The notes under the pieces: model-generated
The model's input: only the letters and a program-made list of their open reading frames with translations
Database searches by the model: none
What the model was told of the DNA's origin: nothing
Made by a program: the position numbers and the translations under genes
Assembly: GCA_021781745.1 (NCBI GenBank)
Contig: JAJXWH010000016.1
Coordinates: 37,464-101,463 of the forward strand
DNA: 64,000 nucleotides
Reading direction: 5' to 3'
From: Bacillota bacterium
GTDB taxonomy: Bacteria > Bacillota > Clostridia > Clostridiales > Clostridiaceae
Shown here: in pieces, positions 5,884 through 19,848 of the stretch
Position numbering within the stretch: the stretch's first letter is position 1
Layout: each line of letters starts with the position of its first letter

Positions 5884-6017
5884 GCTTGGATAAAATATTT
5901 TGAAGTAAATCATTACTTAAACTTCGTAGGCCTTTATTTGCACAAATCATATATTAGAACAATCTTATATTAAGTATCATATTATAAATCATAAATACTA
6001 TTAGGAGAGATTTTCTC

Positions 6018-6248
6018 GTGAAAAAGAAATTCAAAATGTTAACTGCTTTATTAATTTCCAGTGTAACAGCTATATCTATGTTTGGTTGTAGTAATAATAG
6101 TAGTAAAACTACTGAAGGAAAGGTGACTGTACGTTTAAATGAAGTAACACGTTCTGTTTTTTATGCACCAATGTATATTGCAATGAAGGAGGGGTTTTTC
6201 GCTGACAATGGAATTGAGATTGATCTACAAACAGGTCATGCTCTCTGA
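6018..6248 (+). pseudogene. ABC importer substrate-binding lipoprotein, 5' fragment
   Basis: Start of a NitT/TauT-family (SsuA/ThiY-like) periplasmic-type binding lipoprotein. GTG start with AGGAGA 9 bp upstream; signal peptide followed by lipobox SMFGC (Cys at about residue 23). The family pattern runs VFYAPMYIAMKEGFFADNGIEIDL, after which the frame enters the inserted element and stops after 76 codons. The natural continuation is at 9872-10670. Joining 6018-6238 to 9872-10670 gives an uninterrupted 1,020-nt gene (339 aa), the normal size for the family. As it stands the fragment would give a useless secreted stub. Confidence 0.9.
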
Positions 6249-6260
6249 ACTCACTTGCGA
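6226..6260 (+). other. attL junction of the serine-recombinase element
   Basis: Core TACAAACAGGTCA at 6226-6238 is repeated exactly at 9859-9871. Eleven bases inside the element begins CTCACTTGCGA (6250-6260), an inverted copy of the motif at the other end. If the two ends are joined, the inverted motifs sit symmetrically around a central CA dinucleotide (6237-6238), as expected for a large serine recombinase attP site. Confidence 0.85.
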
Positions 6261-6293
6261 ATATTTCGTGAATGTTTATAGTGAGATTATTTT

Positions 6294-7925
6294 TTATATT
6301 TTGCTTCCAATGAAATTTAGTTTTAAGTCGTAAGTTACGCCATTCCAGGTTATGCTTGTAACTAATCCTTTAATTAATGCTTTTATTTCATCGTGAGACA
6401 AGGTATCTATTATAGAACATTTTTCAAGCAGGCATTTTATGAATGATAGGCTTAATTCTTCCATATTTATTTGCTCGATTTTATCATTAGAAATATTTAA
6501 ATCTTTATTTAGCTGTTCTAATTCAACTTTAAGTTCTTTAATTTTAGGAATGATGATATCGACCAGATCAGGATCTAGGGATACTTTATTTAGGAGATTA
6601 TCTATTTGGTCTTTCTTTTGTTTAATTAGTAAATTTAAGTTGTTTTCTAAATTATCTTTAACAACTACTTTTCTAGTTTCTTTATTTTTCCCTATGAGGT
6701 CTCTTACGAAGGCTTCTTTATTTTTCCCTAAGTCCTTTATTACATTTATAATAATTGGATCTATTTGGTCTACTTTTCCATTCGGATTTTCACATCTACT
6801 TCCTTTTGAATTTTTCTTCAGTGTGCAAGTGTAATAATATAATCTTGTTCCAGTTTTTTTACTAACAGGACCATGCATTATTCTCATAGGTGAACCACAC
6901 TTCGCACATTTAATTATACCAGTTAACAAAGCGTTATGACTTCGTGCTGATACTGTGAATTTATCACTATTTCCTGAATATATTTTTTGAACCTCAAGCC
7001 AATCATGGGATTCGATTATTCCTTTATGCACACTTACTGCAACAATCCAATCTGAGGTATTTCTAAATTCACGGCCATGATTACCATCTGCTCTATAAAT
7101 AGTTTTAAGTTTATTATAAGTTAAGAAACCATGTATATTATCAGGTTTTCCACATAAAGTCATACCTTGTGAGCTAAGATAATCAAATATTTCTTCACTA
7201 GCTTTTGCATAAACAGGGTTAGTTAATATTGATCTTAAAGTTGATTTTCTAAAATTAGATCCTGTTCTTGTCTTATAATAATTTTCCAAAAAGTAAGCTT
7301 CAAGAGCACTTAATGATTTTAATTCTAGATATTTATCATATATCAGCTTAACTATTTCCAATTCTTCATTATCAATAGATAGTTTTGCCATTGAATGCTC
7401 AGCCATATTTTCATCATAATAAGTTACTGGACTAGACTTATAACCAAGTGGAGGGGTTCCACCAAGCCACCTGCCGCATTTTGCAAGTTCAAGCATATTA
7501 TCTCGTACTCGTTCCGCTATAGTTTCTCGTTCTAATTGCGCAAATACTGAAGCTATGTATATCATTGCTCTCCCCATTGGTGAGCTTGTATCAAATTGTT
7601 CCCTTATACTTACAAAATCAATATTATACTTTTGAAGGGTTTCAAGGGTAGAAGAGAAATCAGCTACATTTCTTGATATACGGTCTAGTCTATAGCATAT
7701 TAATATATCAAATTTATTTAAAGTAACATCCTTCATAAGTCTTTGAAATTCAGGCCTGTTAATATTACCACCAGAGAAACCTTCATCTTCATATATTAAA
7801 AATTCATAGGTTTCATTAGTTCTGTTTTGATTTATTAAGTATTCTTTACACATTTGAACTTGATTTTCTATACTTTCGCCTTTTCCAGTGAATTTAGATT
7901 TTCTACTATATATTGCAACGTTCAT
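6294..7925 (-). CDS. Large serine recombinase (site-specific integrase)
   Basis: 543-aa recombinase of the large serine (TnpX/phiC31-like) class that would integrate and excise the element. The resolvase catalytic domain spans about residues 1-145, with candidate nucleophile Ser10 in YSRKS and the RLDRISR and GRAMIYIASVFAQLERE stretches. A recombinase domain (about 165-280) follows, then a zinc ribbon near 335-375 (CAKCGSPM ... YYYTC ... RCENP), then a coiled-coil-rich C-terminus. The start ATG has GGAGG on the minus strand. It is full length with no frameshift. Its 3' end lies about 45 bp from the left junction. Confidence 0.95.
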   Translation of the reverse strand: MNVAIYSRKSKFTGKGESIENQVQMCKEYLINQNRTNETYEFLIYEDEGFSGGNINRPEFQRLMKDVTLNKFDILICYRLDRISRNVADFSSTLETLQKYNIDFVSIREQFDTSSPMGRAMIYIASVFAQLERETIAERVRDNMLELAKCGRWLGGTPPLGYKSSPVTYYDENMAEHSMAKLSIDNEELEIVKLIYDKYLELKSLSALEAYFLENYYKTRTGSNFRKSTLRSILTNPVYAKASEEIFDYLSSQGMTLCGKPDNIHGFLTYNKLKTIYRADGNHGREFRNTSDWIVAVSVHKGIIESHDWLEVQKIYSGNSDKFTVSARSHNALLTGIIKCAKCGSPMRIMHGPVSKKTGTRLYYYTCTLKKNSKGSRCENPNGKVDQIDPIIINVIKDLGKNKEAFVRDLIGKNKETRKVVVKDNLENNLNLLIKQKKDQIDNLLNKVSLDPDLVDIIIPKIKELKVELEQLNKDLNISNDKIEQINMEELSLSFIKCLLEKCSIIDTLSHDEIKALIKGLVTSITWNGVTYDLKLNFIGSKI

Positions 7926-7964
7926 ATGAAAACCTCCACTTGAAATTTAGATGTTAAAACACAT

Positions 7965-8004
7965 AAAAAAAATAATACACTAACATACTGGCTATTATTT
8001 TTTT
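7965..8004. terminator. AT-rich hairpin between divergent element genes
   Basis: AAAAAAATAATA pairs with TATTATTTTTTT around a loop of about 15 nt. It lies upstream of the recombinase start, so a regulatory hairpin is as likely as a terminator. Confidence 0.3.
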
Positions 8005-8151
8005 ATTTACATCTTAATGAATAGGTCTTATATAATATAAAAAATATAAAATAAAAATATGACTATACTTAATGGTTTTATTGGAGATTAATTTAAATCT
8101 TAGGCATTGCATAATATAAATTTAGATAGAGTTTAATGGAGGGCAATTTTT

Positions 8152-8313
8152 TTGAAAATAAATCTTCATATTAATTATCCAGATGATATGGAAGCATTGG
8201 AGAAGAAAGCCTCGGACTTATTATCCTCAATACTTATTGAGAAGCTTAATTCTAAAGAAATTGATAAGTTAATAAAGATACTTAAGAGCAATTCAAAAAA
8301 AATCAACTGGTAA
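8152..8313 (+). CDS. Small element-encoded protein, 53 aa
   Basis: Short gene with TTG start preceded by ATGGAGGG 8-9 bp upstream. It encodes a 53-aa, Lys- and Glu-rich protein beginning MKINLHINYPDDMEALEKK, probably one or two helices and no membrane segment. It is divergent from the recombinase gene and upstream of the nucleotidyltransferase gene. Its position and size would suit a regulator or a recombination directionality factor, but I do not recognise the family and this is only a guess. Confidence 0.6.
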   Translation: MKINLHINYPDDMEALEKKASDLLSSILIEKLNSKEIDKLIKILKSNSKKINW

Positions 8314-8402
8314 GTTTTAGACTGTTCTTTTTTCAATATTCATAGAATAATAATTTGAATTTGGCTATAATATAATTAACATTGTATTTAAGGGGAAATT
8401 TT

Positions 8403-8837
8403 ATGTTTAATGAAGATAAAATGGATTGTTCAAAAGATAAAACTCTTATTTTAAGTATTGTTAATAGCCAAGATTTTAAAGACTTATTTATAAATAGAGG
8501 TATAACGAATGTTATTATTTTTGGTAGTTTAGCAAATGGAAATTTTACGTCAGAATCTGATGTGGATATCGCAATTATTTCAAATGCGCCTATCTCCTTT
8601 AACGATGAATTAATCTTAACCCAAAAGTTAGAAGAACTCTTAGATAGAAATATAGATTTAATTGATATAAATGATGAAAATATAAATAATCTTATAAAGA
8701 TTAGTGCATTAAATAGTAAATTTATTGTTTTAAAAGACAACCTTTTAAATGATGCCATAGCTTTTTACGATAATTTGTATAAAGATAATGAAGAGTTTTG
8801 GAGAATACTAGATAGGGAGGTACTTGGAATTGAATAA
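8403..8837 (+). CDS. MNT-type nucleotidyltransferase (antitoxin-like)
   Basis: 144-aa minimal nucleotidyltransferase. The catalytic motif GS-X10-DXD is exact: Gly41-Ser42 and Asp53/Asp55 (FGSLANG...SDVDIAII). Proteins of this type often pair with HEPN toxins and act by transferring AMP to them. ATG 8403 has AGGGG at a good distance; an in-frame ATG 21 bp earlier lacks one. The stop overlaps the start of the next small gene, as in a toxin-antitoxin operon. An acidic C-terminal helix follows the fold. Confidence 0.8.
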   Translation: MFNEDKMDCSKDKTLILSIVNSQDFKDLFINRGITNVIIFGSLANGNFTSESDVDIAIISNAPISFNDELILTQKLEELLDRNIDLIDINDENINNLIKISALNSKFIVLKDNLLNDAIAFYDNLYKDNEEFWRILDREVLGIE

Positions 8838-8967
8838 AGAACGGTTGAAAAAATTATTATATGATTTAGATACAACTACAAAAGATTTAAATAAATCGTT
8901 AGAACTCGTTAAAAAGTATAGTGATAATGCAGAGTTAAAATCAGAATTCTCAAATAGTCTAAAATAG
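8830..8967 (+). CDS. Small helical protein overlapping the MNT gene
   Basis: TTG start with GGGAGG 9 bp upstream, overlapping the preceding gene by 8 bp. The 45-aa product (MNKERLKKLLYDLD...) is one amphipathic helix and lacks the R-X4-6-H motif of HEPN toxins. It resembles the first helix of a HEPN protein, so it may be a truncated toxin remnant or a small partner of the nucleotidyltransferase. There is no obvious frameshifted continuation before 9003. Confidence 0.55.
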   Translation: MNKERLKKLLYDLDTTTKDLNKSLELVKKYSDNAELKSEFSNSLK

Positions 8968-9002
8968 AAAATTTAAAGAGTAGAACTTAAAGGGGTGAAT
9001 CT

Positions 9003-9431
9003 ATGATTAATATTGATACGAAACTAGATGATTTAAAGGATTATTTTAAAAGTAACAATAATATATCAGCGGCATGGTTTATAGGCTCATATGGAACGGA
9101 AAATCAGACTGAAGACAGTGACATCGATATTGCATTGTTATTTGAAAAGCCAATTGGAATTATGGATGAGATGGATATATCATGTAGGATTAGTGAAATC
9201 GTTAAGTTTGATAATATTGATACAATTAACTTATTAAATGCGCCTATAACATTACAATTTAAAGTTATAGATGAAGGTAGAAGCATTTATGAAAAAGATT
9301 ATTATAAAGTTTGTGATTTTATGGAAGGAGTTTTCAATATATATACGGATGAAAAGTATTATTTAGATAAATTTATGAATGATTTTTATGAAAGTTATGG
9401 GGTTAGGAGTAGAGATATTAATGGAATTTGA
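9003..9431 (+). CDS. mntA: MntA-like adenylyltransferase antitoxin
   Basis: 142-aa nucleotidyltransferase with exact GS-X10-DXD: Gly28-Ser29 and Asp40/Asp42 (GSYGTENQTEDSDIDIALLF). In characterised MntA/HepT (type VII) systems the antitoxin AMPylates a tyrosine in the toxin's RX4HXY motif. The gene overlaps the toxin gene by 11 bp, implying translational coupling, and has AAGGGGTGA before ATG 9003. It is only distantly similar to the other nucleotidyltransferase at 8403. Confidence 0.85.
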   Translation: MINIDTKLDDLKDYFKSNNNISAAWFIGSYGTENQTEDSDIDIALLFEKPIGIMDEMDISCRISEIVKFDNIDTINLLNAPITLQFKVIDEGRSIYEKDYYKVCDFMEGVFNIYTDEKYYLDKFMNDFYESYGVRSRDINGI

Positions 9432-9840
9432 TAAAAATAAAATAGATCAAAAATTATTATTTATGAATACATGCCTAAATAAATTAAAAAAATTAAAAGC
9501 ACTTGATAAAAATACGTTTTTAGAGGATTTTACAAAAGTTGATAGTGCTAAATATTTATTACAAGTAAGTATAGAAGCAATGCTAGATATATCTAGTCAC
9601 TTAATAGCTAGGAACAGATGGGGAAAGCCAAAAGATAACAAGGAACATTTTCAAATATTATCTGATAATGCAATAATAGATATTAAAGATGTATCAATAT
9701 ATTTTAACATGGCTAAATTTAGAAATAGGATAGTTCATATGTACTTTAATATTAGTGATGAAATGATATATGATATTGTTCAAAATAACATTGGTGATTT
9801 TGAAAGATTTATTGCTAATATTGCTAGAGTAATTATATGA
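9421..9840 (+). CDS. hepT: HepT-like HEPN toxin
   Basis: 139-aa all-helical HEPN RNase. The catalytic RX4HXY motif is complete: Arg101, His106, Tyr108 (RNRIVHMY). An upstream conserved Ser-His patch (DISSHLIAR, about 56-64) is also typical of the family. ATG 9421 is chosen because it starts the family fold and a weak TAGGAG lies upstream. The stop is only 19 bp before the attR core, so transcription could run into the truncated transporter operon. Confidence 0.85.
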   Translation: MEFDKNKIDQKLLFMNTCLNKLKKLKALDKNTFLEDFTKVDSAKYLLQVSIEAMLDISSHLIARNRWGKPKDNKEHFQILSDNAIIDIKDVSIYFNMAKFRNRIVHMYFNISDEMIYDIVQNNIGDFERFIANIARVII

Positions 9841-9843
9841 TTT

Positions 9844-9871
9844 AATATCGCAAGTGAGTACAAACAGGTCA
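9844..9871 (+). other. attR junction of the serine-recombinase element
   Basis: TCGCAAGTGAG (part of 9844-9858) directly abuts the core TACAAACAGGTCA (9859-9871), after which the host gene resumes in frame at 9872. The motif is the inverted counterpart of the left-end motif at 6250-6260. Confidence 0.85.
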
Positions 9872-10670
9872 AGGTGCTGATAAGACTATGCAGGCAGTTT
9901 TAAGTAAATCTGCAGATATTGGTTTTTGCGGTCCAGAGCAAACTATTTACATCAATAATCAAGGAAGAGAAGATTACCCAGTGCTTTTTGCACAACTTAC
10001 TCAAAAGGATGGTTCTTTCTTGGTTGGAAGAACTAAGGAAGATAATTTTAAGTGGGAGAATCTTAAAGGAAAAAATATTATAGGTGGAAGACCAGGTGGT
10101 GTCCCTGAAATGGCTTTTGAATACGCTATGAAGCATAATAATATTAATCCTAAAACTGATGTAAACATGGTTACTAATATAGATTTTGCAGCAACTGCTG
10201 GAGCATTTAAAGGTGGTACTGGTGACTATGTAGCACTTTTTGAGCCAACAGCATCAGTGCTTCAAAAAGAAGGAAGCGGAACTATTTTAGCATCAGTTGG
10301 TGAAGAGTCTGGCCTTATTCCATATACTTGTTATTTTACTACAAAATCTTATATGGATAAGAACACAAGGGTTATTCAAGGCTTTACAAATGCAATTTAT
10401 AAAGGACAAGAGTGGTTCTTCAGCCATAGTACAGAAGAAGTCGCTGACAGTATAATTGATTACTTCCCTGGTACAGATAAAGAAATAATCATGTCAGTTA
10501 TAGATAATTATAAAAAGATTGATGCCATAGCACATACTCCAGAAATAAAGGAAGAAAACTTAAACAGACTTATGGATATAATTACAGACTACGATGCAAG
10601 CTTAATGCCACAAAGACCACAATTTAGCAAGATAGTAGATAATTCTTATGCTGAAAAAGCAGCTAAATAG
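9872..10670 (+). pseudogene. ABC importer substrate-binding lipoprotein, 3' fragment
   Basis: Remaining three quarters of the binding protein begun at 6018. The frame continues as QGADKTMQAVLSKSADIGFCGPEQ, the ligand-binding region of NMT1/SsuA-like proteins, to a normal C-terminus. An ATG at 9888 could start a 260-aa product, and AAGGTGCTGA just upstream resembles a ribosome site. That product would lack the signal peptide and first strand, so it would be cytosolic and probably inactive. Excision of the 6239-9871 element restores the full gene. Confidence 0.88.
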
Positions 10671-10704
10671 CAATAACATAAAGATGAGAAGGTGGTGATT
10701 GTAT

Positions 10705-11472
10705 TTGAGTTTATTAAAAATATCAAATATATCCATGAATTATCATTCCATTAAAGGTGAAACACAGGCGTTAAATAATGTGAGTTTTGAAGTGAATGAT
10801 AGCGACTTTATTTCTATTTTAGGTCCTTCAGGATGTGGAAAATCTACTTTGCTAAATATTATGAATGGACTATTAGAGCCTTCAAATGGATATGTGTTAT
10901 ACAAAGGTGAAGATATAAAAAAGAACTTAGATAAAATAGGATATATGTTTCAAAAAGATCATCTTTTTGAATGGAATACTGTTTGGGAAAATGTAATCCT
11001 AGGTTTAAAAATAAAAAAGCAACTAAATAATGAATCGAAGAATAAAGTAAATGAACTACTAGATGCATATGGATTATTAAGATTTAAAAATCATTATCCA
11101 AGGGAACTTTCTGGAGGAATGAGGCAAAGAGTTGCTCTTATAAGAACATTAGCGCTAGATCCTGAAATACTTTTTTTAGATGAACCATTTTCAGCACTAG
11201 ACTATCAATCACGACTTTTAGTGTGTGATGATGTTTATAAGATAATAAAATCAGAAAAAAAGACAGCGATAATGGTAACTCATGATATTGCAGAAGCCAT
11301 TTCAATGTCAGAAAAGGTAATAGTTTTGTCAAAAAGACCATCAAAAGTGAAAGTAGAAGTTCCTATAAATTTTAAAAATGATGATTTGACTCCATTTCAA
11401 AAAAGAAGGGATCAGGAATTTTCTGATTATTTTAATAGGTTATGGAAGGAGTTGAATGAAGGAAATGAATAG
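10705..11472 (+). CDS. ABC importer ATP-binding protein (NitT/TauT family)
   Basis: 255-aa ATPase energising the importer. Walker A GPSGCGKST (near residue 42), Q-loop MFQKDHLFEW, signature LSGGMRQR (near 133), Walker B LFLDEPFSALD, switch His in MVTHD. I place the start at TTG 10705: AAGGTGGTGA ends 6-7 bp before it, whereas TTG 10699 directly abuts the ribosome site. It overlaps the permease gene by 17 bp. Substrate is probably a sulfonate-, nitrate-, thiamine-precursor- or aromatic-like small molecule; sequence alone does not decide. Confidence 0.93.
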   Translation: MSLLKISNISMNYHSIKGETQALNNVSFEVNDSDFISILGPSGCGKSTLLNIMNGLLEPSNGYVLYKGEDIKKNLDKIGYMFQKDHLFEWNTVWENVILGLKIKKQLNNESKNKVNELLDAYGLLRFKNHYPRELSGGMRQRVALIRTLALDPEILFLDEPFSALDYQSRLLVCDDVYKIIKSEKKTAIMVTHDIAEAISMSEKVIVLSKRPSKVKVEVPINFKNDDLTPFQKRRDQEFSDYFNRLWKELNEGNE

Positions 11473-12268
11473 TGAAATTTCAAAGGAACATGAAATATAC
11501 TTAAGCAAAGTAAAAAGAACTAAAAGAAGAATAGTAATAATTAGAATCCTTATACTCGTTATTTTTATTGCTTTATGGCAAATAGCAGCTAATCAAAAAT
11601 GGATTGATCCATTTTTGACTTCAAGCCCAGCAAGAGTAATTCAGTCATTTGTGTCATTATATGAAAGTGGTAGTTTATTTAAGCATATAGGCATTACCTG
11701 CTATGAAACTATTTTAGGCTTCTCATTAGGCACGATTTTAGGAGGATTAATTGCAGTAATATTATGGTGGTCTCCATTTGTATCTAAAATATTAGATCCA
11801 TATCTAGTAGTTTTAAATGCACTTCCTAAAGTTGCTTTAGCACCAATTATAATTTTTTGGATTGGTAATGGAATGCCAGCAATAATTGTTATTGCACTAT
11901 TAATATCAATTATTACAACAATTATTAGTATTTTAACTGGGTTTAACGAAATTGATCAAGAAAAAATTATGCTTATGAACACCTTTAGAGCATCAAAGAT
12001 ACAAATATTGCGATATTTAATATTTCCATACTCTATTCCAATTTTTATTTCAGCTCTAAAGATAAATGTTGGGCTTTCCTGGGTCGGCGTAATTATGGGA
12101 GAGTTTTTGGTAGCTAAAAGTGGATTAGGATTTTTAATAGTATATGGTGGACAAGTTGCTCAGTTAGATATGGTAATGATGAGTATTGTAATTCTTTCCA
12201 TGATTGCTTTTGTTATGTACGAAGCTGTTGCAATTATAGAAAGGAGACTTATAAAGGACAAGAATTAA
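11456..12268 (+). CDS. ABC importer permease (NitT/TauT family)
   Basis: 270-aa membrane subunit, about six helices, of the BPD_transp_1 family. The EAA-type cytoplasmic loop contacting the ATPase lies near residues 160-185 (TGFNEIDQEKIMLMNTF). Last gene of the importer operon, translationally coupled to the ATPase gene (17-bp overlap), with AAGGAG just before ATG 11456. With the binding protein disrupted upstream, this permease/ATPase pair probably has no dedicated binding protein in this strain. Confidence 0.92.
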   Translation: MKEMNSEISKEHEIYLSKVKRTKRRIVIIRILILVIFIALWQIAANQKWIDPFLTSSPARVIQSFVSLYESGSLFKHIGITCYETILGFSLGTILGGLIAVILWWSPFVSKILDPYLVVLNALPKVALAPIIIFWIGNGMPAIIVIALLISIITTIISILTGFNEIDQEKIMLMNTFRASKIQILRYLIFPYSIPIFISALKINVGLSWVGVIMGEFLVAKSGLGFLIVYGGQVAQLDMVMMSIVILSMIAFVMYEAVAIIERRLIKDKN

Positions 12269-16256: not shown

Positions 16257-17579
16257 TTATCTTCTTCGACCTGAACGGCCGTAATAACTTCTTTTTTTTC
16301 TGCGCTTTGAATTAACAGCCATATTTCTAATTAGTGCAAGTAAAGTGATGATAATAGCTATACCTACTATGGTTGCTATATAAATAATTATGTTATCTTT
16401 AATAAGATCACCAAAAGAAATATCTACTGCACCTGTAACTTCTTCAGAGTGATTTCTTGTACTGTATGTTAACTTAACATCTTTCTTGAAAAGTAAATTC
16501 CATGCACTAGTATCCGTTCCGTTAAAAGTGATTTTAGATTCAGCATCATTAATATCATTTTTATAATAGGTTACATCTTGAGTTAATTTAACTGGTACAG
16601 AAATAGTTTTTGTAGGACCAAATACAACAAAAGGTTTATATTTTACTTCAGCATTTCCAACGCTCTCGCCGTTAGCTTTGTATACTTCTTTAGTTGCAGC
16701 ATAACTATAATCCATTATAGCATCCATATCGTTAAACTTTGTCATATCTGCATTATCTATTTGTCTGCTCTTAAAGACAATACCTAGCATTTGTCTTCCA
16801 TTTCTTTCATAAACAGTAGCAAGGCAACCCCCTGCTTCGCTGGTTGTTCCAGTTTTTCCTGCAATATTACCATTTTTACCAAGAGTTAAATTTCTATTTT
16901 CTAAAATTAATCTAGAATTCTTTATGGTTACAGGAGCTTCTTTAAGTTCCATTGTTTGTCTTACCCAATCATTTGCAAAGGCTGCTTTTAAAATTAATGA
17001 AAGGTCATATGCTGTAGTATAATGATTTGGATCATGTAATCCGTTTGGAGTAACAAAATTACTATTATTAGCTCCAAGTTCCTTAGCTTTTTTATTCATC
17101 AATTCAGCAAAGGCTTTAGAGTTACCTGAGATATTATCTGCAATTACATATGCAGTATCATTTCCTGAGAATAGAAGCAAACCTTTCATTATGTCGTCTG
17201 CTGACACTTTATCCCCAGGCTGCATTGTATTATGCATATAATTGAGATTTATAGAATATTCAGGCTGCTCCTTTGCTGATTTAGTATATTCAAGTTGGTC
17301 AGATGGTTGTTTATTTTCAGCTAATAATAAACCAGTTAAAAGTTTAGTCGTACTAGCTGGATATCTTTTGCTATCAGCATCTTTACAATATATTACTTCA
17401 CCAGTCTCTAAATCCATGGTTAAAGCTGATTGAGCCACAATGTTCGGTAAAGCTTGTGCAGATGCTTCAGTTTTAGATTTTGTAGTAGAAGTCTCTGCAG
17501 AATTTGCTATAGCTAGTGGACTAAATAAAGAAAGAGAAAAAGTTAATGCAAGTGCTTTTAAAATTAAATTTTTTTTCAA
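16257..17579 (-). CDS. dacF: D-alanyl-D-alanine carboxypeptidase (DacF/PBP5 type)
   Basis: 440-aa exported enzyme that trims the terminal D-Ala of peptidoglycan stem peptides. Signal peptide at residues 1-25. Active-site motifs in order: SxxK in ASTTKLL (about 77), SGN in LFSGNDTA (about 138), and KTG in GKTGTTSEAGGC (about 240). A membrane anchor helix near residues 395-418 and a very basic tail (KRRKKRS...RRR) follow. TTG 17579 is chosen because TGGAGAG lies 7-8 bp upstream; the GTG 15 bp earlier is part of that ribosome site. Single-gene unit with its own terminator. Confidence 0.92.
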   Translation of the reverse strand: MKKNLILKALALTFSLSLFSPLAIANSAETSTTKSKTEASAQALPNIVAQSALTMDLETGEVIYCKDADSKRYPASTTKLLTGLLLAENKQPSDQLEYTKSAKEQPEYSINLNYMHNTMQPGDKVSADDIMKGLLLFSGNDTAYVIADNISGNSKAFAELMNKKAKELGANNSNFVTPNGLHDPNHYTTAYDLSLILKAAFANDWVRQTMELKEAPVTIKNSRLILENRNLTLGKNGNIAGKTGTTSEAGGCLATVYERNGRQMLGIVFKSRQIDNADMTKFNDMDAIMDYSYAATKEVYKANGESVGNAEVKYKPFVVFGPTKTISVPVKLTQDVTYYKNDINDAESKITFNGTDTSAWNLLFKKDVKLTYSTRNHSEEVTGAVDISFGDLIKDNIIIYIATIVGIAIIITLLALIRNMAVNSKRRKKRSYYGRSGRRR

Positions 17580-17747
17580 GTCAAATCTCTCCACTTCTAT
17601 TTATTTAGGCATATTAAAATTTACTTGTTTTTGGACATGCCTTAGTATATTAAAACATTTTTAGTATAACACTTATGTAACGTTATAACAATAAATGCAA
17701 TGTTAAAACTTACATGCAATATATGACAATTTGCACTATTTTAACAA

Positions 17748-18470
17748 TTATTTTAATCTTTCAATTATAGATTTTTTTGCATTTAATTCAAATTTATCGT
17801 CTAATGAATCAAGTTTTACTTCATCACCATATTTTTTTTGCAAGGCTAAAGTTAAAAGTCTGTCTGCAAATTCAGGATTCTTTGAAAGGAATGACCCATG
17901 AAAATATGAACCAAAGGTATTTTTATATATACATCCTTCATAGCTATCTTCACCATTATTTCCATATCCGTGAATGCATTTTCCAAGTGGAGTATGATTG
18001 TTTATATAGGTTCTTCCTGAGTGATTTTCAAAGCCTACATATGTTTCATTAAATTCTTCATTATATATTTCTGTATTACCAATAAATCTGGTATCTCCAC
18101 CTTCAGTATAAATATCTAAAATACCAAGACCATCAATTTTCTCACCATTTGGCGCTGTATAATATTTACCTAATAATTGATAACCACCACATATGGCAAG
18201 AAGAACTTTTCCATCTTCAATGTAGTTTGTTAACGCATCTTTCTTTATTTCATTTAAATCTTTTGATACTATAGATTGTTCATAATCTTGTCCGCCACCA
18301 AAAAAGATTATGTCCACATTTTCTTTATCAATGTTATCGCCTAAAGAAGAATTAATTATATTTACATCTATTCCTCTAAGCGCTGCTCTATGTTTTAAAA
18401 TAAGTACGTTACCTAAATCACCATAAACATTTAGCAAATCAGGGTACAAGTGACAAATTGTTAACTCCAT
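17748..18470 (-). CDS. gatD: Lipid II isoglutaminyl synthase glutaminase subunit GatD
   Basis: 240-aa class-I glutamine amidotransferase (CobB/CobQ-like). It releases ammonia from glutamine so that MurT can amidate the D-Glu of lipid II. Catalytic Cys94 lies in LAICGGYQLLG, and the catalytic His is in GSYFHGSFLSKNPEF near 188, matching known GatD positions. It starts 20 bp after murT ends on the same strand, forming the usual murT-gatD operon. Confidence 0.94.
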   Translation of the reverse strand: MELTICHLYPDLLNVYGDLGNVLILKHRAALRGIDVNIINSSLGDNIDKENVDIIFFGGGQDYEQSIVSKDLNEIKKDALTNYIEDGKVLLAICGGYQLLGKYYTAPNGEKIDGLGILDIYTEGGDTRFIGNTEIYNEEFNETYVGFENHSGRTYINNHTPLGKCIHGYGNNGEDSYEGCIYKNTFGSYFHGSFLSKNPEFADRLLTLALQKKYGDEVKLDSLDDKFELNAKKSIIERLK

Positions 18471-18489
18471 GATTTTCTCCCTCCTAGCA

Positions 18490-19848
18490 TTACCATAACT
18501 TTTTAATATAGCCCTTTGAATGAAGATATTTTCTGTAATTAATCATCGCAGTGTAAGTTGCAAGTATGTATACTTTTTTTGAAACAGATTCTTTAATTTT
18601 ATCTGTCAATTCTTCATAATCTTCTTTTAGAATAAATTTATCAACATTTAAACCAGCAACCTTTAATCTAACTGCCATATCATACATTCTAAGTCCTGAA
18701 ACAAAAATATCTTCTATTTTAAGAGTGGATATTCTTTCAAAATCTACATCCCATATCCAAGAAACATCACGTCCATCAGCATAATTATCATTTAACATAA
18801 ATACAGCTGAAAATTCATTTTGGTTAAGTGCAAGGGTATCTAAAGCTTGATTATATCCTGCAGGGTTTTTCACTAATATAATTTGGATATCCTTATTTCC
18901 TATAGTTATTTGTTCCTGTCTGCCAAAACTTGAACTTTGATTTTGAAGAGAAGTTTGTATTACTGAATCTTCTATACCAAGTTCCTTTGAAATAGCAAAG
19001 GCACATAAAGCATTATAAATATTATAGGCACCCGATTGACTTATAAAAACTTCAGTATCATTAATTAACACAGACGAATTCTCTGGATTTAAATCAAAGA
19101 TTTTATTAACAGCATAATGCAATTCAGAACGCTTGTAACCACAGCTCGGGCAATAATAACTTCCTAAGTGATTATAAGTTACTAAATCATATGAATAAGG
19201 TGATTTACAAAACTTACAGAACTTTGCATCTGCATTTAAATCTAAAGAAGTATCTTCTTTAATAGGCGTATTGAAGCCATAAAATACAACTTCATTTTTT
19301 ACATCTAATTTTCCAAGTAAAGATTCATCGCCATTTAAAACTAATTTAGTTTCTGGAACCTTTTCTACACCTTCTAATATTTTAACTAAGGTAGTATAGA
19401 CTTCTCCATATCGATCCAATTGATCTCTAAATAAATTAGTCACTGTTATTATTTCTGGAGTTAGATGTTCAGTAATAAATTTAACATTAGCTTCATCAAC
19501 TTCGATTACTGCATAAGGATTTTCTTTTTTTTTGAAAAAAGAATAATTTGATACAAAACACGCCACAATACCTGGATATAGATTAGCACCGGTATTATTC
19601 GTTATAACATTAAAACCATTTTGCTTTAATATGTTATAAATCATACTTGTAGTTGTAGTTTTTCCATTTGTTCCTGTTACTAGAATTATTTTATATCCTT
19701 TGCTCACTCTTTTTAAAATAGATTTATCAATTTTTAAGGCTATCTTACCAGGAAAATTACTACCACCTTTTAAAATATGTTTTGAAGCAAAAGCAGTAAT
19801 TTTTGATAACAATATGCTTACAATAGACTTAATATTAATTTTACTCAC
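18490..19848 (-). CDS. murT: Lipid II isoglutaminyl synthase subunit MurT
   Basis: 452-aa Mur-ligase-like enzyme that activates the alpha-carboxyl of D-iGlu in lipid II and amidates it with ammonia from GatD. ATP-binding P-loop LVTGTNGKTTT near residue 56. The MurT-specific zinc ribbon is visible as CKFCKSPY and CPSCGYK near 205-228. The C-terminal DUF1727 region follows. Start GTG 19848 is used because GGCGGTGAG-type sequence surrounds it and the protein begins normally (MSKIN...). First gene of the operon. Confidence 0.93.
   Translation of the reverse strand: MSKINIKSIVSILLSKITAFASKHILKGGSNFPGKIALKIDKSILKRVSKGYKIILVTGTNGKTTTTSMIYNILKQNGFNVITNNTGANLYPGIVACFVSNYSFFKKKENPYAVIEVDEANVKFITEHLTPEIITVTNLFRDQLDRYGEVYTTLVKILEGVEKVPETKLVLNGDESLLGKLDVKNEVVFYGFNTPIKEDTSLDLNADAKFCKFCKSPYSYDLVTYNHLGSYYCPSCGYKRSELHYAVNKIFDLNPENSSVLINDTEVFISQSGAYNIYNALCAFAISKELGIEDSVIQTSLQNQSSSFGRQEQITIGNKDIQIILVKNPAGYNQALDTLALNQNEFSAVFMLNDNYADGRDVSWIWDVDFERISTLKIEDIFVSGLRMYDMAVRLKVAGLNVDKFILKEDYEELTDKIKESVSKKVYILATYTAMINYRKYLHSKGYIKKLW

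Follow-up and report, generated by a model that had tools for sequence, protein, structure and literature searches.

Genes of the sporulating mother cell recurrently house excisable DNA elements, as the mother cell dies while the spore keeps the element (PMC6957869). Precedents for elements in such genes come from several papers (PMC6957869, PMC10747680, PMC4191935, PMC5595907), and sigK, spsM, gerE, spoVFB, spoVR, kamA and yabG are named in papers as sporulation genes with elements of this kind. We report on a large serine recombinase (LSR) element inside a substrate-binding lipoprotein gene of a Clostridiaceae bacterium, located in a 64,000-nucleotide stretch of contig JAJXWH010000016.1 (the window, to which positions refer). 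We predict, with a probability of roughly 0.65, that this 3,633-bp element excises precisely in the sporulating mother cell, rejoining a gene that is likely a late (σK) one.

The closest described system is yin, in yabG of Clostridium botulinum V73 (PMC10747680). Like the window element, yin is an LSR element with short direct repeats in a late mother-cell gene of a clostridium, and in both the LSR adjoins the 5′ half of the gene and is accompanied by a small candidate directionality factor. For yin, the excised circle and the rejoined gene were demonstrated by PCR, whereas excision of the window element is predicted only. Yin is moreover prophage-like, occupies another gene and was described as unique to one strain; the window element is a 3.6-kb toxin-antitoxin cassette, and its target is split in 36 genomes. 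In the skin systems of Bacillus subtilis and Clostridioides difficile (PMC5025042, PMC6957869), the mother-cell gene sigK is rejoined by the LSR of the element and a small directionality factor, the spore retaining the element that the mother cell loses. As a large prophage remnant that interrupts a sigma-factor gene, skin differs from the present case, an importer gene into which different LSR groups insert at about four positions. The gin element in gerE of Bacillus cereus ATCC10987 (PMC5595907) is likewise a non-phage element with serine recombinases, excised in sporulation, but at 28.6 kb and with three recombinases it contrasts with the window element, which has a single recombinase in 3.6 kb. 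The LSR elements SPβ (in spsM) and φ3T (in kamA) of B. subtilis (PMC4191935, PMC6957869) likewise occupy mother-cell genes and are excised during sporulation; unlike the window element, they are active prophages, each in a single gene within one species group. Finally, the comK prophage of Listeria monocytogenes (PMC8987985) similarly splits its gene into two open reading frames (ORFs), comK being restored when the insert leaves, but it is a prophage rather than a small cassette and is not linked to sporulation.

The window element spans 6239-9871. A preliminary description of this DNA had placed 3,633 bp between the gene halves, with TACAAACAGGTCA at both junctions, and this is what we find; the distance from repeat to repeat is likewise 3,633 bp. 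The gene halves, the motif ahead of them and the predicted attachment (att) sites are listed here, with genomes of the comparison given as G numbers.

5959..5986, + strand: σK-type promoter motif AC-N17-CATATTATA, ending 31 bp upstream of the start codon at 6018
6018..6238, + strand: 5′ half of the substrate-binding lipoprotein gene, GTG start (ORF list and protein comparison with G031)
6226..6238, + strand: attL core repeat TACAAACAGGTCA, predicted crossover CA at 6237-6238
6250..6260, + strand: attP right arm CTCACTTGCGA, with similar arms in G004 and G012
9848..9858, + strand: attP left arm TCGCAAGTGAG, complement of CTCACTTGCGA
9859..9871, + strand: attR core repeat TACAAACAGGTCA
9872..10670, + strand: 3′ half of the substrate-binding lipoprotein gene (NMT1 families, Pfam)

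Joining 6018-6238 to 9872-10670 in a script yielded the seamless frame of normal length that had been claimed: 1,020 nt, comprising 339 codons and then a stop. Related genomes had been proposed as a place to look for an uninterrupted version, and G031, the closest relative in the genus, carries one of equal length (339 amino acids), with the attB sequence at the expected junction position. The 73 residues ahead of the junction are identical between the two genes, the 260 C-terminal residues are 98% identical, and the ratio of non-synonymous to synonymous substitution rates (dN/dS) between them is 0.053.

The proposal of inverted arms lying 12 bp on each side of a centre with CA, as in an LSR attP, also held: the arms would stand 24 bp apart in a circularised element, with CA as the two central bases. 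Judged by arm spacing and central dinucleotide, this matches the layout expected for an LSR attP. The arms and the CA crossover are found again in the G004 and G012 insertions, and partly in those of G007 and G033, with just 4 bp (CAAG) common at the crossover in G004. Because of this recurrence, and because a full-length LSR is found at 35 of 39 insertions in the family, we regard the att layout as beyond chance. The window genome differs from these relatives in its left attP arm, which reads TACAAACAGGT at 9859-9869, an 11-bp match to attB, where G004, G007, G012 and G033 have TTCTTGCAGCA or similar. The attB-like arm accounts for the 13-bp repeat of the window genome and looks like the product of conversion or of an imprecise earlier excision. 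One more exact copy of TACAAACAGGTCA occurs in the 5.73-Mb assembly; it lies in an unrelated place and was treated as chance rather than as an att-related site.

The gene is a family-wide insertion hotspot. Counting presence at a set similarity limit, we found it in 55 of 68 genomes of the genus and in 167 of 206 genomes of the family. Fifteen genomes of the genus have it split (the window genome, G003, G004, G006, G007, G009, G012, G018, G021, G023, G027, G028, G029, G033 and G059; G001, where a contig end cuts the gene, was excluded), as do 21 genomes from 10 other genera, giving 36 of 167 carriers in 11 genera. These hold 39 insertions, since G007, G012 and G033 have two each. The halves are on separate contigs in nine of the 36 (G007 at its first site, G009, G027, G059, G106, G107, G130, G131 and G163); where they share a contig and direction, the gap ranges from ~2.9 kb (G029) to ~119 kb (G126). 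As a control, the adjacent permease gene gave a single near-full-length match in all 55 genus genomes that have it. Comparison of 11 insertions with intact relatives placed them at about four attB positions: CA/CAAG near codon 72, a site ~10 bp further on (codons 73-78), one near codon 149 (G018) and one near codon 184. In the literature, the gene was not found reported as an insertion target, although supplements of an LSR survey (PMC10083194) may hold such cases. Elements of this kind are known. What is new here is that this gene is the target, that it is a multi-position hotspot, that insertions are stacked in it and that the element takes the form of a 3-kb cassette.

The variety of break points bears on whether rejoining is needed at all. 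An ATG at 9888 opens a 260-amino-acid frame, and 260-amino-acid pieces appear as separate proteins in public sets (P0070, P0079, P0091), so the 3′ fragment might function alone as a shortened protein. We consider this highly implausible: the fragment has no lipoprotein signal and an incomplete domain, of which the first part is missing, and with breaks at about four positions across species no common fragment is kept.

Several insertions stand out by their layout. The smallest, in G029 (L063, ~2.9 kb), contains an LSR, a 67-residue ORF with a relative near the G021 LSR, a 111-residue ORF and little else, and may possibly be a minimal excision unit. The codon-72 insertion of G033 (L068, about 16545-19280) carries, by annotation, sporulation genes as cargo: SpoVAD, two SpoVAC/SpoVAEB-family genes and a YetF-DUF1657 protein. 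In G134 (L090, G134:C1:697500-708500) the halves are on opposite strands ~6 kb apart, as if the element or its flank were inverted. G178 (L083) has a second N-terminal gene fragment ~0.9 kb ahead of the 5′ half. The gene of G097 (L091) shows a frame break near codon 99-104 in its 3′ part and a partial overlap with the N-terminal region, and is possibly a decayed copy.

σK drives late mother-cell genes, and a σK-type promoter motif is conserved ahead of the split gene. Among the 86 of 167 carrier genomes with upstream DNA at hand, 66 have AC-N16-18-CATANNNTA within 150 bp of the start codon (25 of 36 interrupted and 41 of 50 intact genes), with a spacer of 17 bp in 62 of the 66; relaxing the last motif position to G raises the count to 77. 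The number expected by chance is 1.4 from shuffles or 1.8 from a first-order Markov model. Of 546 other ORFs, taken from fetched loci of at least 5 kb, 12 are preceded by the motif, and none of 20 paralogous binding-protein genes of the same genomes has it within ~500 bp. The window by itself holds 3 matches in 64 kb against 3.4 expected, so that the copy at 5959-5986 is not significant alone and the weight rests on conservation across genomes. The B. subtilis σK consensus is GCATANNNTA (PMC3416734), and in C. difficile it is the AC at -35 that separates σK from σE promoters, the -10 boxes being similar (PMC3789822). On these promoter features, the split gene likely belongs to the late (σK) sporulation programme. 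The gene also occurs in 166 of 194 SpoIVA-positive and 1 of 12 SpoIVA-negative genomes, which is consistent with a spore role without proving one; this co-occurrence is weak, as the SpoIVA-negative genomes are concentrated in a few genera, the one carrier among them (G032) has a completeness of 78% and 28 SpoIVA-positive genomes are without the gene at the limit used. No match was obtained in an Rfam scan of the 64-kb window at the gathering threshold, and riboswitch control of the split gene was set aside on that ground.

The recombination genes of the element, with the box ahead of the small ORF, are listed next.

6294..7925, - strand: LSR, 543 amino acids, convergent with the 5′ half (PF00239, PF07508, PF13408; phrog_95 integrase)
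8110..8118, + strand: CATAATATA box ahead of the small ORF, without AC at -35
8152..8313, + strand: 53-residue ORF, TTG start, candidate recombination directionality factor (profile family in 19 of 39 insertions)

All three LSR families score over their cut-offs, corresponding to catalytic resolvase, recombinase and zinc-ribbon domains. Eighteen of the 19 members of the small-ORF family lie within ~1.2 kb upstream of a full-length LSR, while the G106 copy is on a contig with no LSR seen; G006 and G028 gave only weak hits to the profile. The 53-residue ORF had no match in Pfam, PHROGs or NCBIfam. Its model consists of two helices (mean predicted local distance difference test score 79, predicted template modelling score 0.44), too simple for an informative fold search, and its matches among solved structures, which had E values no better than 0.024 and were to coiled coils and unrelated proteins, were set aside. 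The directionality factors of skin and, by prediction, of yin are small element-encoded proteins (PMC10747680), and the 53-residue ORF is a candidate for the same role.

The window's own genome holds a further split gene, yabG (PF05582), with halves at G000:C53:36881-37078 and 74545-75201 and ~37.5 kb between them (part in L050). A 551-residue ORF of the LSR family adjoins the N-terminal half, and the insertion carries a small ORF of the same family as the 53-residue ORF. By its gene content this is a yin-like case, yin being the yabG element for which PCR showed excision (PMC10747680).

Full-length LSR ORFs (at least 512 amino acids) lie within ~130 bp of the junction at 31 of the 35 insertions that have one and at 0.5-4 kb in the other four (G028, G104, G105, G108); the DNA retrieved for G106, G107, G134 and G163 contains no complete LSR. 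A tree built from the 35 full-length LSRs sorts them by insertion site: the five of the window-element type form one group and the seven of the codon-184 type another, each with 100/100 support, but the joining of these two groups to each other is unsure, long branches being flagged for both. No in-frame stop occurs in the matched halves of any of the 36 interrupted genes. Values of dN/dS run from 0 to 0.154 in the closest 32 interrupted pairs among those listed and from 0 to 0.256 in the closest 20 intact pairs among those listed. We do not regard low dN/dS as decisive for function in the interrupted state: a recent insertion would give the same result, and in several pairs the divergence of the LSR disagrees with that of the gene.

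That disagreement is one of several observations that weigh against developmental excision. Synonymous divergence (dS) between G006 and G028 is 0.14 for the LSR and 0.65 for the host gene, and the LSR is also less diverged than the gene in G003/G023, G104/G105 and G012/G021, so several insertions look recent or horizontally acquired. Since an LSR can be younger than its gene, open halves prove little. Other pairs behave differently: the LSR is more diverged than the gene in G128/G129 and G004/G012, and G125/G126 (LSR dS 0.15, gene 0.11) would fit shared descent. The exact σK-type motif is missing from 11 of 36 interrupted genes. The full motif precedes the small ORF in just 6 of 23 cases checked (G012, G033, G079, G139 and the related loci L040 and L050), and the window copy has the CATAATATA (CATA) box without AC. 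Viral contigs, scanned for exact matches to attP in the form seen in the relatives, gave 0 hits; the left arm of the window genome, with GAGTAC in place of GAGTTC, would escape that pattern.

The recent or horizontal look of several insertions would suit an ordinary site-specific mobile element or prophage family with a conserved attB in a dispensable gene, one that departs only when it moves and whose presence simply silences the importer, with no developmental excision. Such an account draws further on the two orientations of the LSRs relative to the split gene, on the site specificity of most LSR clusters for few target genes (PMC10083194), and on phage structural genes in some large insertions: two sets of 28 large ORFs each, taken from four large insertions and from five other insertions, both contained tape-measure and portal families, and the first set contained terminase as well. 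We nevertheless judge it unlikely, if by some way the most serious alternative: the conserved σK-type motif puts the target in a gene class where developmental excision is the rule in the published cases, and the matched halves are stop-free in 36 of 36 genes. A phage collection yielded one record with an LSR at E ≤ 1e-50 (44% identity). Relatives of the 5′ half were present in six unannotated human-faecal 'phage' records; five have the 3′ half within ~20 bp, so that these records look like bacterial DNA with the gene intact rather than phage carriage, and the sixth had no 3′ half at the limit used.

The remainder of the window element is a toxin-antitoxin cargo.

8403..8837, + strand: MNT-type nucleotidyltransferase-domain protein (Pfam; NCBIfam MntA 58 bits, cut-off 60)
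8824..8967, + strand: 47-residue ORF, matching the start of a 149-residue ORF in the C. chromiireducens element
9003..9431, + strand: MntA-family antitoxin (NF047752, 79.8 bits, cut-off 60)
9424..9840, + strand: HepT-family RNase toxin (NF047751, 125.7 bits, cut-off 60)

The last two are adjacent and both exceed curated cut-offs, which makes them a type VII toxin-antitoxin pair. The partner of the first MNT gene seems to have been cut short, with the 47-residue ORF as its apparent remnant. Because the LSR alone of five element proteins tested matched PHROGs, with no phage structural genes, we do not call the element a prophage. A 50-bp stretch at 8336-8385 is 96% identical to G000:C1:8643-8692 (L006), downstream of a Uma2-like ORF.

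The truncated partner ORF, the left attP arm unlike that of the relatives and the fact that no excision was seen could together indicate a dead insertion, immobile, with the gene lost for good. We think this very improbable, given an intact LSR ORF of 543 residues with all three domains, arms symmetric about CA, and two open halves that show a dN/dS of only 0.053 against the intact gene of G031.

Downstream of the split gene, two genes of the same importer follow in a row.

10699..11472, + strand: ABC transporter ATPase, same importer as the split binding protein (Pfam, NCBIfam)
11456..12268, + strand: ABC transporter permease, same importer as the split binding protein (Pfam)

NCBIfam names for the three are loose (sulfonate/nitrate-type). 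In B. subtilis, ytlA, ytlC and ytlD are σK-controlled genes of an ABC importer (PMC3416734). By analogy, the cluster is likely a YtlA-YtlC-YtlD-type importer, and we infer that it is the Clostridiaceae counterpart of YtlACD.

Under mother-cell excision, the small ORF would be made in the mother cell and act as a directionality factor, and the LSR and the small protein would recombine attL with attR at the CA. The rejoined gene would then be transcribed with the ATPase and permease genes from the σK promoter. Because the mother cell dies, the element would be retained in the chromosome of the spore, so that the switch would be reset in every generation; the MntA-HepT module would help to hold the element in place. 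The preliminary description had proposed a regulated switch rather than damage. That proposal gains strong indirect support from the conserved σK-type motif, the 36 of 36 stop-free halves, the recurrent small ORF and the split yabG of the same genome; its live operation stays a prediction, because several insertions look recent or horizontal and no excised junction was seen. Beyond that description, we propose mother-cell development as the likely trigger.

More tentatively, at somewhat short of an even chance, a mother-cell import operon of the Clostridiaceae may be under DNA-excision control. One σK gene would have become, time and again, the home of LSR elements ranging from 3-kb cassettes to insertions of ~100 kb, which occupy about four positions, lie in either orientation and leave only in the doomed mother cell; the three doubly inserted genes would need two excisions to become whole. 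A transporter gene that is split in 36 of 167 genomes, spread over 11 genera, would be in unusually wide use as a target. This suggests a rule by which late mother-cell genes are safe harbours, since excision there costs the element nothing. The small LSR and small-ORF unit may offer a system for studying directionality, and the locus points to an uncharacterised late-sporulation importer.

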